DNA from: a virus
Virus record (IMG/VR): IMGVR_UViG_3300036814_001776
Span: 1-41,987 of that record
Reading direction: 5' to 3' (one strand)
DNA length: 41,987 bases
In this document: one piece after another, positions 8,839-14,725 of the stretch
Layout of the letters: the number at the start of each line of letters is the position of its first letter
Numbering within the stretch: the first letter of the stretch is position 1
Translations under genes and position numbers: made by a program
The notes under the pieces: model-generated
The model's database searches: none
The model's input: the letters and a program-made list of their open reading frames with translations, nothing else
What the model was told of the DNA's origin: nothing

Positions 8839-10170
8839 TTAGAACCGTTCGAAGCCGGTAGCTTCTCGAATTTCAGCAATGCGACTTTCGCCACGGATCA
8901 CCTCTCCGCGATAGATAGCACGTCCATGAGTGATCGGGATTAGTTTCATTGAAATGCTGGCATGGTCTTGCGCCGTTGGAGGCAGTTTTGAAATAACGCC
9001 TAGCCCGTTTTGCCAGTTGGTGCGTTTGGTTTGACCCGGAACAACCGGCTGATCGAGTCGGCACATTGTTCCCGGCGTCATTGCATAGATGATTTCTTTT
9101 TGCCCACCGGGACCGGCAATCGCCTTGGCGTTCATTTCTAAGCGGTGGACATGACCAACGACTTCGCTATAACAAGCATCTCGAATAATGGCGCTTGTTG
9201 TGGCACCGGACCCGCTTCGGGCAATGTCGCCGTGATGAATACGAACCTTGTCCCAAAGCCAAAACTCTTCTTTGTATGGGCCGAAGTATTCGATATCGAG
9301 CGACGGTAGATCCAAAAGCCTGCTGACAGAAAGCGCATTGTCCTTTGTATCGCTATTGACCGGGCGAACAGTCCCGGCTTCTTTTAGAGAATCTTGAATT
9401 TGTCGCTGAATCCGAAATTCGTGGTTGCCTTCGATGTAAAGGATGTGGCTTGTTGGGCAGCTTTGGCGCAAACACGCAAGCCAGTAATGAAGTTCTTGCA
9501 ATGCTGGCATTGTGGTTCCGTAATGTGCGACAGAAGTGGAGTATGATCCCCATGCGGCTAAATCCAACATATCGCCCAAAAGAACGATGACAGACGGCTG
9601 CATTTTTTCGGCTATCGTTACAGCAATGTCCCAGCATCTCCGATCATGCAGTGGTGTAAAGCTGCCGTCCTCTTCTCGGATGTAGCCGTTTTGAGAATCT
9701 GGAATTACAAGACAGTGTTCGACACCGACTTCGGTGCTTCGGCTAGGTTGGCGGCGAATGGGCGCAACGGCTTGCACCGGCTTCAAAAGCCATTCAGGAA
9801 GTTTTTGGAGCCATGCTTTGACTTGCCAAAGCTCGATAATATCCCCATCGCGGGTTTGGCTATCCCATTTGTTTGCTTGCCACTTTTCGACCTTCCAACC
9901 GTCTTGTCGTGAAACACCGGCTGCAATAAGCAAATCATCCAGGGTGCGGATTCGACCTCGTACCGAGATCGTTTTTTCTGTTTCGTTTCCTTCTACCAGA
10001 ATCGTATTGGTTTCGGGTAGGCCGTTCTCTTTTTGCCAAACTTTTGCTTTGTCTAAATTTCGACTTACAGTGGTACGATGGACATCGAGGCGCGTGGCTA
10101 TTTCTGAGAAAGAAAAGCCGTCCTCATGTAATTTGAGAATACGTTCAAAAAATTCGGTACGTTCGTCCAC
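8839..10170 (-). CDS. HTH plus calcineurin-like metallophosphoesterase
   Basis: A 443-residue protein encoded against the structural genes. Residues about 10-40 form a helix-turn-helix of resolvase/terminase-small-subunit style (FSFSEIATRLDVHRTTVSR). Residues about 150-345 carry the metallophosphoesterase motifs in order: PDSQ near 157, LLGDMLD near 199, EGNHE near 249, HHGD near 312 and GHVHR near 340. The first motif is DxQ rather than the usual DxH, so one metal ligand is changed. The combination suggests a DNA-directed or nucleic-acid phosphoesterase. The GTG start has no ribosome site and lies 7 bases after a -10-like box, so a leaderless mRNA is possible. Confidence 0.85.
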   Translation of the reverse strand: MDERTEFFERILKLHEDGFSFSEIATRLDVHRTTVSRNLDKAKVWQKENGLPETNTILVEGNETEKTISVRGRIRTLDDLLIAAGVSRQDGWKVEKWQANKWDSQTRDGDIIELWQVKAWLQKLPEWLLKPVQAVAPIRRQPSRSTEVGVEHCLVIPDSQNGYIREEDGSFTPLHDRRCWDIAVTIAEKMQPSVIVLLGDMLDLAAWGSYSTSVAHYGTTMPALQELHYWLACLRQSCPTSHILYIEGNHEFRIQRQIQDSLKEAGTVRPVNSDTKDNALSVSRLLDLPSLDIEYFGPYKEEFWLWDKVRIHHGDIARSGSGATTSAIIRDACYSEVVGHVHRLEMNAKAIAGPGGQKEIIYAMTPGTMCRLDQPVVPGQTKRTNWQNGLGVISKLPPTAQDHASISMKLIPITHGRAIYRGEVIRGESRIAEIREATGFERF

Positions 10171-10700: not shown

Positions 10701-11754
10701 AATACTCGCAACCGTTTCGCGGGAATTGGCCCAAGCGCACCACGATGCGTATTTGATTGAGCTTTTGGGTCAAGCGCGTTCCGGTGTTAGTCCTGAACGG
10801 GTTCAGGAGCTTTTGTCCCAAGGCGTGTTGGATGCCAGCAAGCTAGGCGGTGTTGTAATTACCGGAATGGCAAACGTAGCCGATCCGTTCTTGTTCATGC
10901 GAATGGTCGCCCAAGCAATCGAAAAGGCTCCCGCCGAAGATCGTATTGGAATGCGCCAATGGTCGCTTGATCAATGGAAAACCGAAGTCGATAAGGCGAT
11001 TGATGCGGAAAGAGCGGGTTTGCCGAAGCCGGAATTCCCATCCACAGGGAGCACAATCGAGCTTCCCGGTCCCCCTGAAGCGGCACGAGGCGCGGTCATT
11101 GGGGCAACGTCTGCGCCATATACGGACGATCTGCCCGATTGGCTCGATAACAAATCCAAAGCCGCGTACAAGCAGGCGATTGAACGGGCCGGGGAATTTT
11201 GCCGGGGCTTAGGAAACCAGTTGGCCGACGATTTACATAACGTCGTTGCAGAAACATGGGACGGTGACGAAATTCTTTCGGAGATCGATGCGGAATTGCG
11301 GCAAGATAGGCTTAAGCTAATTCAAGAAACTGTTGGAGAAGCTATCATAACGCATAAGTCGGCAAAAAAACTGGCTAGAGATTTAGCCAATAAAACAAAA
11401 TACTATTCTCACAATTGGGAGAGAATCGCTCGAACCGAACTTCAAGGCGTTTATAACGAAGGCGTTATTTTGGACGCAATTGAATATTACGGTGAAGAAA
11501 CGCAAGTTGCGCGGGTTACAGAAACAGGGGCGTGCTCTCATTGCAGACGTTTATTTCGTAACTCAGAAGGGAAACCAAAAATTTTCCCTATTGCAGAGTT
11601 AATTGCAAATGGTACAAATGTCGGTAGACGTGCGCGAGATTGGCAGGCCACAATTTGGCCCGTGCATCCGAATTGCCGGTGTGACACAATGATTGTGCCA
11701 CCGGGTTTAGTGGTAACAGAAGACGGACGACTAAGGCGTCCAGAGGAAAAATGA
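10681..11754 (+). CDS. Mu gpF-like minor head / head morphogenesis protein
   Basis: A protein of 357 residues in the Mu gpF/SPP1 gp7 family of minor capsid proteins that associate with the portal and DNA-entry apparatus. The C-terminal region shows the family signature: NWERIARTELQGVYNEG near 240, then CSHCRRLF near 285 and WPVHPNCRCDT near 327, giving a Cys/His cluster. The N-terminal half is helical. The GTG at 10681 is chosen because GAGG lies 9 bases upstream. It ends in an ATGA overlap with the prohead protease, the usual order for head genes. Confidence 0.85.
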   Translation: MPKLKRKILATVSRELAQAHHDAYLIELLGQARSGVSPERVQELLSQGVLDASKLGGVVITGMANVADPFLFMRMVAQAIEKAPAEDRIGMRQWSLDQWKTEVDKAIDAERAGLPKPEFPSTGSTIELPGPPEAARGAVIGATSAPYTDDLPDWLDNKSKAAYKQAIERAGEFCRGLGNQLADDLHNVVAETWDGDEILSEIDAELRQDRLKLIQETVGEAIITHKSAKKLARDLANKTKYYSHNWERIARTELQGVYNEGVILDAIEYYGEETQVARVTETGACSHCRRLFRNSEGKPKIFPIAELIANGTNVGRRARDWQATIWPVHPNCRCDTMIVPPGLVVTEDGRLRRPEEK

Positions 11755-12533
11755 GTATCGATACCTTTTCAGTCTTTGTGCCTTTTGAGGTTTTGGAAAA
11801 GGCAGATTCGCCCGAAGCAATGACCGGGCGAATTGGTGGCGTTATTTCGACTGAAACGCGAGATTTTCAAGGCGAGATTTTGGCGCAACAGGGTATTGAT
11901 TGGTCGTATTTCCTCAAGCACGGTTGGTTTAATTACGAACACCAGAAAGGGCCGGAAAATGTTTTGGGCCATCCTGAAACAGTAGTAACCGGCGAATATC
12001 AAGGCCAACCGGCGACTCGTGTAGAAGGCGTTTTGTATCTACACAAGCCCAAAGCCCGTGAGATTTTTCAAACGGCGCAAGCCATGAACAAAGCCGGTGC
12101 CGCCCGAAATCTTGGATTTTCGGTCGAAGGCCAAGTGCTCGCACGCGACAAAAAGAAAGTAACCAAAGCAAAGGTATTAAATGTCGCCATTACCGCACAT
12201 CCTGTGAATCCAGATGCTCGTTTAGAGGTTCTGGCAAAAGCGATGAACAGTATCGGCTACCAAACTCCTGCGGGAACGGGATCCGGTAGCTTTTCACCTT
12301 TGGTGCCGCAATCTTTAGAAAAGTTCACCTCTTCGGCCACTTATGGAAGTGACGTAAATATGGGTGCAATGAACCCGTATGTATCTTGGATGAGACAATC
12401 GGGCGGTACGGGTCAGATGACCGTACCTCAGTTGGCTTTAACCCTTTCTCGCACTTTCCCACAGTTGTCGTATAGTAGGGCGATTACCGTCGCCACGGCT
12501 ATTAAGAATTCGATGCAGTGGGGTGGGCATTGA
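11751..12533 (+). CDS. Prohead maturation protease with capsid-like C-terminal tail
   Basis: A serine protease of the HK97-type prohead family that cleaves scaffold and capsid proteins during maturation. The likely catalytic His64 is in NYEHQK and Ser124 is in GFSVEG. AHPVNPDAR near 150 matches the end of the protease core. Beyond residue 165 is a 95-residue tail. Residues 169-198 (GYQTPAGT...LVPQS...SSATY) closely resemble residues 32-64 of the major capsid protein. This may be a self-cleavage site or a signal for incorporation into the procapsid. It is coupled to the gpF-like gene by ATGA and followed by a terminator-like hairpin. Confidence 0.85.
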   Translation: MSIDTFSVFVPFEVLEKADSPEAMTGRIGGVISTETRDFQGEILAQQGIDWSYFLKHGWFNYEHQKGPENVLGHPETVVTGEYQGQPATRVEGVLYLHKPKAREIFQTAQAMNKAGAARNLGFSVEGQVLARDKKKVTKAKVLNVAITAHPVNPDARLEVLAKAMNSIGYQTPAGTGSGSFSPLVPQSLEKFTSSATYGSDVNMGAMNPYVSWMRQSGGTGQMTVPQLALTLSRTFPQLSYSRAITVATAIKNSMQWGGH

Positions 12534-12548
12534 AATAATTTGATTTTT

Positions 12549-12584
12549 GTCGCAAGATTTCGCGTGTGCGACTTGTGTTTTTTT
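12549..12584 (+). terminator. Rho-independent terminator or attenuator before the scaffold gene
   Basis: GTCGCA (12549-12554) pairs with TGCGAC (12567-12572), followed by a T-rich run including seven consecutive T (12578-12584). It separates early head genes from the highly expressed scaffold and capsid genes. Confidence 0.55.
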
Positions 12585-12602
12585 GATTAGGAGATTTAGA
12601 AA

Positions 12603-13253
12603 ATGAGTGAAGCACTTATTCAGCATCTTGTCGATTCCGGCATCGGTGGGGAAAAAGCACAAGAAATCGCTGCTTCTTTTCCCGCCGAAGGCACGGAAGA
12701 AACTTTTGACAAAGACGCTCTTACAAAAGCGTTGGTCGAACTTAGAGAAACTTTTGCTAATGGCGAAGAGGACGATTCCGAAGAGGTTCAAAGTGACTTT
12801 GAGCTTGAAGCTGACGACGGAATCGTTGCCGATCAATCCGGCACAATTGCCGCGATTGCCAAAGGCGCGGATGCCATCTTGGAAGAAACGCGGCATCATA
12901 ACCAAGTTATTTCGAAAGCTCTCATTTTGATGGGCGAACGAGTCGCAAGTCTTGAGAACCATTTGAGCACAGATCGTGGTCACATTGCCAAGAGCCTTGA
13001 CGCTGTTGCGGACAATCTTGCTGAGCCGAATCCGGTGAAAGCACAGATTGACCAATCGGGCGTTATCCCGGCTCCCGGCGATGCGACGGACGGCGTTCCG
13101 ACTCGATTTTCTCTGATTTCTAAAGCCCTTGATGAAATGCGGACTTCAACGGATTCAAATCGCGCACAGACCCTTGGTCGGGCTGTGTCGTTGCTTGAAT
13201 CTGGTGCAGATCCTAGTTTTATCGCTGATTCCTATAAACTTGTGAGCAACTAG
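12603..13253 (+). CDS. Probable scaffolding protein
   Basis: A 216-residue, acidic, largely helical protein directly before the major capsid gene, the usual place for a scaffold. The region near 50-75 is rich in Glu/Asp (EEDDSEEVQSDFELEADD). A heptad-like helix near 95-135 (ISKALILMGERVASLENHL) could form a coiled coil. The C-terminal 50 residues are again helical, as expected for capsid binding. The ribosome site AGGAGA precedes the ATG. No enzyme motif is seen. Assignment rests on composition and synteny. Confidence 0.6.
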   Translation: MSEALIQHLVDSGIGGEKAQEIAASFPAEGTEETFDKDALTKALVELRETFANGEEDDSEEVQSDFELEADDGIVADQSGTIAAIAKGADAILEETRHHNQVISKALILMGERVASLENHLSTDRGHIAKSLDAVADNLAEPNPVKAQIDQSGVIPAPGDATDGVPTRFSLISKALDEMRTSTDSNRAQTLGRAVSLLESGADPSFIADSYKLVSN

Positions 13254-13264
13254 GAGGCCCCACA

Positions 13265-14725
13265 ATGTTTTCAATTCCTCAAATGAACGATATGATCCCG
13301 GTGGGCGATCTCCAAGCATTGAACGAGTCGCTTCGAAAAGCGGCAACCGGCGATGTTGGTTACCAAACCGTTGCTGGTACTTCCGGTACTGGTATTGGTG
13401 GGTTGTCAGCCCTTGTCCCCCAATCTATTGAAGGGACATTGGCAAGCGCCACTTATACGATGAAAGAGCTTGCTCTTTGGCCGTCAATCCCAAAACGCGC
13501 TGTTGGACAAACAGTCCATGAATTCTCTGTGATCAACGATCACGGTTTGGACATGGACCCGTTTATTTCTGAAGGCGCTGGTGGAGCCAACAACAAATCC
13601 AGTTATACCAGAAAATTCATCAAAATCAAGTACTTAGCCGAACGTCGGGAAGTTACAGACGTGGCCACAATGGTTGGTTTGATCGGAAATAACAGCAATG
13701 CGCTGGCCGAAGAAACTGAGCGTGGAACTTTGCGCTTGATGCAGAAAGTTGAACAACAGTTGTGGCACGGCGACGAGTCTACTACTGCGGATACCCATTT
13801 CGATGGTGTTATCAAGCAGATTACCGATGGCGCTCCCAAAAATGTGACGGACCTTCGTGGCCAGCCGATTACCCCGAATCTCTTGCAAGAGGTTTTGGGC
13901 GATTTGTACGCGGCTCCGAAATTCGGGCGTCCTGATAAAATTTGGATTGAGCCACGGGTTCACGCCGATTTGATCAAGCAGTCTGTTGTTTATGGTCGCC
14001 ATGACCAGCTTCAAAGCACGGATGGTGCTTTGACCTTTGGTCACAGGGATCTAAATATCATGGCTCCATACGGCTCTGTACCGTTGGCAGCGGCTCCGTT
14101 CTTATTTGAGGCGAGCACTCCTCCCAATGACGGGGACTCGCACGCAGGCGATGCTTCGGCGGCGGGAACGGCTCCTGTTACTCCAACTGTTACAAATTCG
14201 TCAAATACCTCGAATGCCTTGTCGCAGTTCACGGCGGCTGATGTCGGATTCTATGGCTACAAATTTGTACGCTATAACGATTCCGGTTTCAGTGCGGCGG
14301 GTGCTACCGTTAGCGGCTCTGCGCTTATTGACCACGGTCAGGTGGCCAATTCTGGAGAGAGTGTGACTGTCCAGACCAGTGCGGCTGCGGACTGGAATTA
14401 TATGAAGGTCTATCGAAGCGCAAAGGCTGTGTCGGAAGCTGCGGTTGATATGACTACCTGTAAATTCATTGGTCAGATCAAAAGAACCGACGCCGCTGTC
14501 ATCGATTTTGTTGACCATAATGATAGTATTCCGGGTACGTCAAAAATCGTGCTAATGCAGATGGTGCCTGAAATTGTCGAATTTGCACGGCTCTTGGATT
14601 TCTTGCGTAGACCGTTAGCAGAAGTTGCTACTACGAAGCCCTTTCTCCTTATGTTAATGGGCAGTCCGATTGTTAAAGTTGCGACAAAATGCGCCGTAAT
14701 CACGAATGTGGGTCTGAGCACGTAG
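13265..14725 (+). CDS. Major capsid protein (HK97-like) with FN3/Ig-like insertion
   Basis: A 486-residue protein in the capsid position with a strong ribosome site (AGGAGG). The first 60 residues hold a GYQTVAGT...LVPQS segment that may be trimmed by the protease. Core features follow: ALWPSIPKRAVGQTVHEF near 75, an E-loop-like segment, RLMQKVEQQLWHGD near 155, and a C-terminal LARLLDFLRRPLAEVATTKPF strand/helix. Residues about 282-425 look like an inserted FN3/Ig-type beta-sandwich (YKFVRYNDSGFS, MKVYRSAKA, DFVDHNDSIPGTS). Such domains are common surface decorations of phage structural proteins. Without the insertion the protein is about 345 residues, a normal size for the fold. Confidence 0.85.
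   Translation: MFSIPQMNDMIPVGDLQALNESLRKAATGDVGYQTVAGTSGTGIGGLSALVPQSIEGTLASATYTMKELALWPSIPKRAVGQTVHEFSVINDHGLDMDPFISEGAGGANNKSSYTRKFIKIKYLAERREVTDVATMVGLIGNNSNALAEETERGTLRLMQKVEQQLWHGDESTTADTHFDGVIKQITDGAPKNVTDLRGQPITPNLLQEVLGDLYAAPKFGRPDKIWIEPRVHADLIKQSVVYGRHDQLQSTDGALTFGHRDLNIMAPYGSVPLAAAPFLFEASTPPNDGDSHAGDASAAGTAPVTPTVTNSSNTSNALSQFTAADVGFYGYKFVRYNDSGFSAAGATVSGSALIDHGQVANSGESVTVQTSAAADWNYMKVYRSAKAVSEAAVDMTTCKFIGQIKRTDAAVIDFVDHNDSIPGTSKIVLMQMVPEIVEFARLLDFLRRPLAEVATTKPFLLMLMGSPIVKVATKCAVITNVGLST

Follow-up and report, generated by a model that had tools for sequence, protein, structure and literature searches.

Herpesvirus pUL26 carries a C-terminal assembly tail that brings the protease in, and self-cleavage releases it. 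For most tailed phages, the counting, placing and post-assembly firing of maturation proteases in procapsids are unsettled. In T4, proteins enter the prohead by means of a short propeptide, the capsid targeting sequence (CTS), which is removed afterwards (PMC5694885), and gp245, the prohead protease of the giant phage SPN3US, loses a 64-aa C-terminal propeptide by autocleavage (PMC10052503, PMC5694885). The HK97 protease is packaged in Prohead 1 at about 60 copies, as cited in PMC12749128. Here we show, by sequence comparison, that the tail of another phage prohead protease copies the N-terminal arm of the major capsid protein (MCP) of the same phage.

Head genes of the window and the copied capsid arm

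The window (the whole stretch of DNA analysed, 41,987 bases) encodes a portal, a contractile sheath and, on the plus strand, three head genes in the order protease, scaffold and MCP. The prohead (head maturation) protease (260 aa, 11751-12533) matches phrog_1028 (E 1.1e-48). The MCP (486 aa, 13265-14725) matches phrog_752 (E 5e-63), is SU10_MCP by Pfam and finds the SPO1 capsid 9vel by Foldseek (E 3.6e-28). The scaffold protein between them (216 aa, 12603-13253) was assigned by position and composition. When head proteins were compared, the closest named relatives were Herelleviridae, to whose proteases that of the window is about 26-33% identical; a search of genome contigs with the window MCP gave no match. 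Within the cluster of head genes, a gene on the minus strand (8839-10170) lies between those for portal and protease; its product has a helix-turn-helix at the N-terminus and weakly matches a metallophosphatase. A large ORF at 1-2613 runs in from the contig edge and weakly matches a DNA polymerase processivity factor, at residues 718-772 only.

By profile, fold and its His and Ser residues, the window protease is a phage prohead protease related to herpesvirus assemblin. The top Foldseek matches of its model were the pseudorabies pUL26N, HCMV, HSV-2 and VZV proteases (E 4e-4 to 5e-3, with low TM-scores of 0.3-0.4), Pfam S78 matched below cut-off only, and the protease domain also weakly matches phrog_617, described as a major head protein. 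His64 and Ser124, which we take from the family to be the catalytic residues, are invariant in 42 protease relatives. AlphaFold2 predicted a catalytic domain at residues about 21-163 (11811-12239; pLDDT mostly >90), ending at Lys163, and a C-terminal module of helices at residues 208-257 (12372-12521; pLDDT about 82). Residues 164-201 between them were left disordered (pLDDT <50) and were not packed on the catalytic core. The site motifs and the deposited ends of mature MCPs would fit cleavage of MCP and scaffold by this protease in the procapsid.

The disordered segment holds the copy. The protease reads GYQTPAGT from residue 169 (nt 12255), LVPQSLE from residue 184 and SSATY from residue 194, and the MCP reads GYQTVAGT from residue 32 (nt 13358), LVPQSIE from residue 50 and ASATY from residue 60 (last nt 13456). 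The preliminary description had aligned protease residues 169-198 with MCP residues 32-64 and seen an L-x-KA stretch before both; we found these positions borne out, with a local score of 89 vs 28.3 ± 5.5 in shuffles, and the stretch present as L-A-K-A from protease residue 161 and L-R-K-A from MCP residue 23. The interval it gave, 12255-13457, also includes the scaffold gene, which is outside the resemblance. The full mimic (protease residues 164-198, 12240-12344) is 60% identical over 35 residues (p about 3.5e-7) to the MCP arm (residues 26-64, 13340-13456, delimited by profile-profile match), and tail and arm are each predicted to be unstructured in isolation. When the protease was compared with all other frames of the window, the MCP was by far the best match (the runner-up scored 46), and tblastn of the protease on its own record found itself and the MCP N-terminus (E 4.4e-6) and nothing else. 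Hence, the shuffle score, the frame-by-frame comparison and the within-record tblastn rule out chance resemblance.

Cognate pairing of tail and arm across phages

From two IMG/VR scans and named phages we assembled 155 usable loci, which reduced to a non-redundant set of 57. We found that the protease tail pairs with the MCP arm of the same locus at p<1e-3 in 53 of the 57, including SPO1-like, Twort-like, A511-like and Brochothrix phages; of the remaining four, L053 and L091 have p near 1e-3, and L098 and L101 have no match. Tail/arm identity across loci is roughly 30-74%, and the profile-profile match of tails with arms reached E 5.2e-12 for 14 pairs and 3.9e-17 for 57 sequences. All 13 named Herelleviridae-type phages, from different genera, have a tail that resembles the N-terminus of their own MCP, for example KSMTTGYEHGGTDQTDGSALRRQSLA (tail) and KSMTTGYNHGGTDQFNGQALRRQSLA (arm) in Brochothrix A9 and KSWTTGHGTTPDTQVNAGALRRESL and KSFTTGYGITPDTQTDAGALRREFL in Listeria LP-083-2; for SPO1, the pairing has p 8.6e-13.

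The pairing also extends to Thermus phage phiMa (p 2.4e-12; LTAGDPHALDPKSGLTGVPAIRRESLEG and QTAGDPHALDFKAGLTGVPAIRLESIEA), Lysinibacillus phage LysYB1 (p 3.5e-14), Pseudomonas phage Dolphis (p 3e-7), Morganella phage Mecenats66 and, more weakly, Thermus phage Lalka27a. The arms of phiMa, LysYB1 and Dolphis are very different in sequence, and the own pairing is significant nonetheless. With one arm query, seven of eight complete phage genomes had the arm at exactly two places, MCP and protease; with a second query, CampHawk and vB_EalM-132 again had it only there, and the arm was found on no further head protein in the complete genomes searched. In T4 and HK97 the resemblance is absent: T4 gp21 has no similarity to gp23, and the HK97 protease tail matches its MCP at p 0.36. 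Just downstream of the Lalka27a MCP, on the opposite strand, are an annotated CRISPR repeat region and a TnpB-family transposase (L182:6732-8531). The proteases of Enterococcus phage vB_OCPT_Bill (H70) and Bacillus phage 010DV005 (H81) are annotated 'major capsid protein', a label that may stem from the arm they share with it.

The tail tracks the MCP arm of its own phage and not the family average, also within clades, as judged from the aligned sequences. The own arm beats a foreign arm in 88% of comparisons at a protease-core distance of 0.6-0.7 and in 95% at 0.7-0.8. When partners were shuffled within clades, identity fell (p 0.0002 for three of the clade cut-offs and 0.0026 for the tightest). 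The partial Mantel correlation of tail with arm, given core and MCP body, is 0.396 (p 0.0005), in a type of test that is liberal and can exaggerate. The preliminary description had proposed aligning homologues to see whether both segments change together; by own-pair, permutation and Mantel tests, they clearly do.

Cleavage site at the arm border and a proposed docking model

Protease and MCP alike have an invariant or almost invariant Lys in front of the arm. K163 is invariant in protease relatives, and the putative self-cleavage site is K-S or K-A in 54 of the 57 proteases; the L-x-K|S/A motif shared with the MCP maturation site places a putative cut in the window protease at L-A-K163|A164 (12237-12242). 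Several SPO1-like and Lactobacillus-like proteases (L003, L007, L065, L068, L123 and others) have two K-S/K-A sites each, one where the catalytic domain ends and the second directly before the arm mimic.

In the window MCP, relatives with deposited structures indicate a propeptide of residues 1-25 (13265-13339) that ends in L-R-K25. The mature MCP of phage 812 in PDB 9row begins at S25, after K24. SPO1 Gp6.1 (9vel) differs little from the CampHawk MCP; its most complete chain (B) has 445 modelled residues, or 468-23, a count (not a coordinate) that fits cleavage after K23. Hence, the whole arm, first residue included, appears ordered in the mature SPO1 shell. The preliminary description had held that a mature MCP N-terminus far from the copied segment would speak against its reading; instead, it is exactly at L-x-K|A/S, in 9row and, by counts, in 9vel.

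Scaffolds across the family contain 486 K-S sites vs 182 expected (2.7-fold enriched), and no arm similarity was found in them; the window scaffold has several K-A/K-S sites and no arm copy. Hence, cleavage by itself cannot account for the resemblance, and since cutting seemingly needs the short motif only, the additional 30-35 residues must have another use. Of the two functions first proposed for the resemblance, a common maturation cleavage site is right as to the shared site and insufficient as an explanation, since the copy runs 30-35 residues past the cut; sharing of a cleavage site and nothing more is ruled out by the K-S-rich scaffolds that carry no arm. A capsid-mimic tag is the better reading, with docking in the procapsid as the step that we infer.

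We think it probable that the tail is a self-releasing mimic of the capsid arm that docks the protease in the procapsid and is cut at K|S/A. The tail would occupy the site of an MCP arm in the assembling shell and thereby recruit or position the protease, and the C-terminal helical module would bind scaffold. When shell assembly has finished, the protease would cut the scaffold and the MCP propeptide and, at K|S/A, itself, which would free the catalytic domain from its tether. A broader form of this proposal is possible, though we hold it only tentatively: a two-part assembly tail, with a coat-arm mimic in a vacant lattice site and a scaffold-binding helix, would make the protease a pseudo-coat subunit that bridges shell and core, self-cleavage would leave the mimic arm in the mature shell, and the arrangement would be of ancient origin among tailed phages that infect Gram-positive, Gram-negative and Thermus hosts.

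Some observations count against docking. Prohead 1 of D3, an HK97-like phage, shows no visible N-arm at residues 114-137 (PMC12749128), so an arm-docking site may not exist before expansion. Also, one clade and one further phage manage without the mimic. L098-L101 (L098:3025-4080, L099, L100, L101:2866-4047), a sister clade of the window phage, keep the MCP arm (VGYQTQAGTAGFNAIVPQSIEGTLASATH in L098), and their protease has a long, acidic, coiled-coil-like C-terminal extension instead; Bacteroides phage DAC19 keeps the MCP arm and has no matching protease tail. At the site, L098-L101 have K-K-N in both protease and MCP. A protease without the tail beside an unchanged MCP arm, which the preliminary description had named as counter-evidence, thus occurs, but it does not void the resemblance elsewhere. 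Since L098-L101 keep the arm without the tail, the arm is independent of the tail, and the tail is the imitator and is replaceable.

The main rival of docking is that the protease itself reads the segment as an extended recognition element, at an exosite or as a cis pseudosubstrate; this would keep the enzyme inactive or give self-cleavage and MCP cleavage common contacts. Both copies do begin at one scissile motif, and giant-phage proteases are known to self-process (PMC10052503). However, the enriched K-S sites of scaffolds lack the arm, so cleavage does not need it, and the predicted tail is disordered and off the core. In addition, tail divergence has no residual relation to its own catalytic core (partial r -0.06, with one truncated locus left out of this and the other divergence tests); ordinary 40-aa windows of the core follow the rest of the core with r 0.35-0.47. 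Hence, we consider a substrate mimic unlikely.

A variant of the docking model with another partner is that the tail, though a mimic of the MCP arm, binds scaffold, so that the protease joins the scaffold core and not the shell. In 80alpha and P22, scaffold contacts an MCP N-arm helix, as discussed in PMC12749128. However, the tail diverges with the MCP body (partial r 0.50, which drops to 0.147 without one clade) much more than with the scaffold (0.14), and it is the C-terminal module, not the tail, that follows the scaffold (partial r 0.52, jackknife 0.478-0.577). We therefore give this variant a slightly lower chance still. The co-divergence of the C-terminal module with the scaffold suggests that this module binds scaffold. 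By hhalign, sequence homology between module and scaffold was not detected, which leaves the module without support as a scaffold homologue; an HK97-protease-type end found no support either.

It is also conceivable that the short cleavage motif alone is functional and that the rest is ancient homology, from a duplication or a former protease-MCP fusion. The two genes are close, with the scaffold between them, and the weak match of the protease domain to phrog_617 is in keeping with such an origin. However, a neutral old copy should resemble foreign arms no less than its own, and own arms match far better. At 1103 identical tail/arm residues, the codons were identical in 499 cases vs 498.0 expected from codon usage. 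Hence, synonymous sites are saturated, and selection at the protein level keeps the likeness, not recent DNA exchange. The far better match to own arms and the roughly 30-74% identity kept despite this saturation contradict a neutral remnant for the family as a whole, and we regard this reading as very improbable. Intragenic duplication followed by drift, also raised in the preliminary description, fails on the same grounds and because two genes are involved. Repeated gene conversion that keeps both DNA segments alike would yield own-pair similarity without functional coupling but is scarcely credible, since the codon test shows no recent copying and rules out recent duplication or conversion; ancient conversions followed by purifying selection may have occurred.

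Comparison with known systems

The Herelleviridae proteases (SPO1 gp3.2, phage 812 gp94, Listeria LP-083-2, Brochothrix A9) belong to the same family and have the same gene order and a cognate tail. Since SPO1 and 812 are laboratory systems with solved capsids, tests by deletion and tail swap are direct, and the sequence record supplies a candidate element together with its borders, cut site and probable partner. The arm mimic could also be put to use as a cognate tag with which to load these capsids with cargo.

The T4 CTS is N-terminal, has 10-20 residues and targets the core, whereas the window element is C-terminal and follows the catalytic domain. The HK97 gp4 protease gene is adjacent to the MCP gene, as here, but the HK97 scaffold is fused to the MCP. 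SPN3US gp245 shares an autocleaved C-terminal propeptide, a precedent for the proposed self-cleavage of the tail; however, it cuts after A-x-E, and we found no report of MCP mimicry for it (PMC10052503).

Assembly tails on proteases are a known kind, in herpesvirus pUL26 and as giant-phage propeptides. What is apparently, though not certainly, undescribed is a protease tail copied from a coat arm and tracking the cognate coat: we found no report of the resemblance in the open-access literature searched. Herpesvirus assemblin (pUL26) is the best fold match of the window catalytic domain. The window protease does not have a scaffold tail of the pUL26 type: hhalign gave its tail a probability of 0.3-0.6% against scaffold. 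The herpesvirus protease tail is scaffold sequence, whereas the tail of the window protease copies the coat instead.
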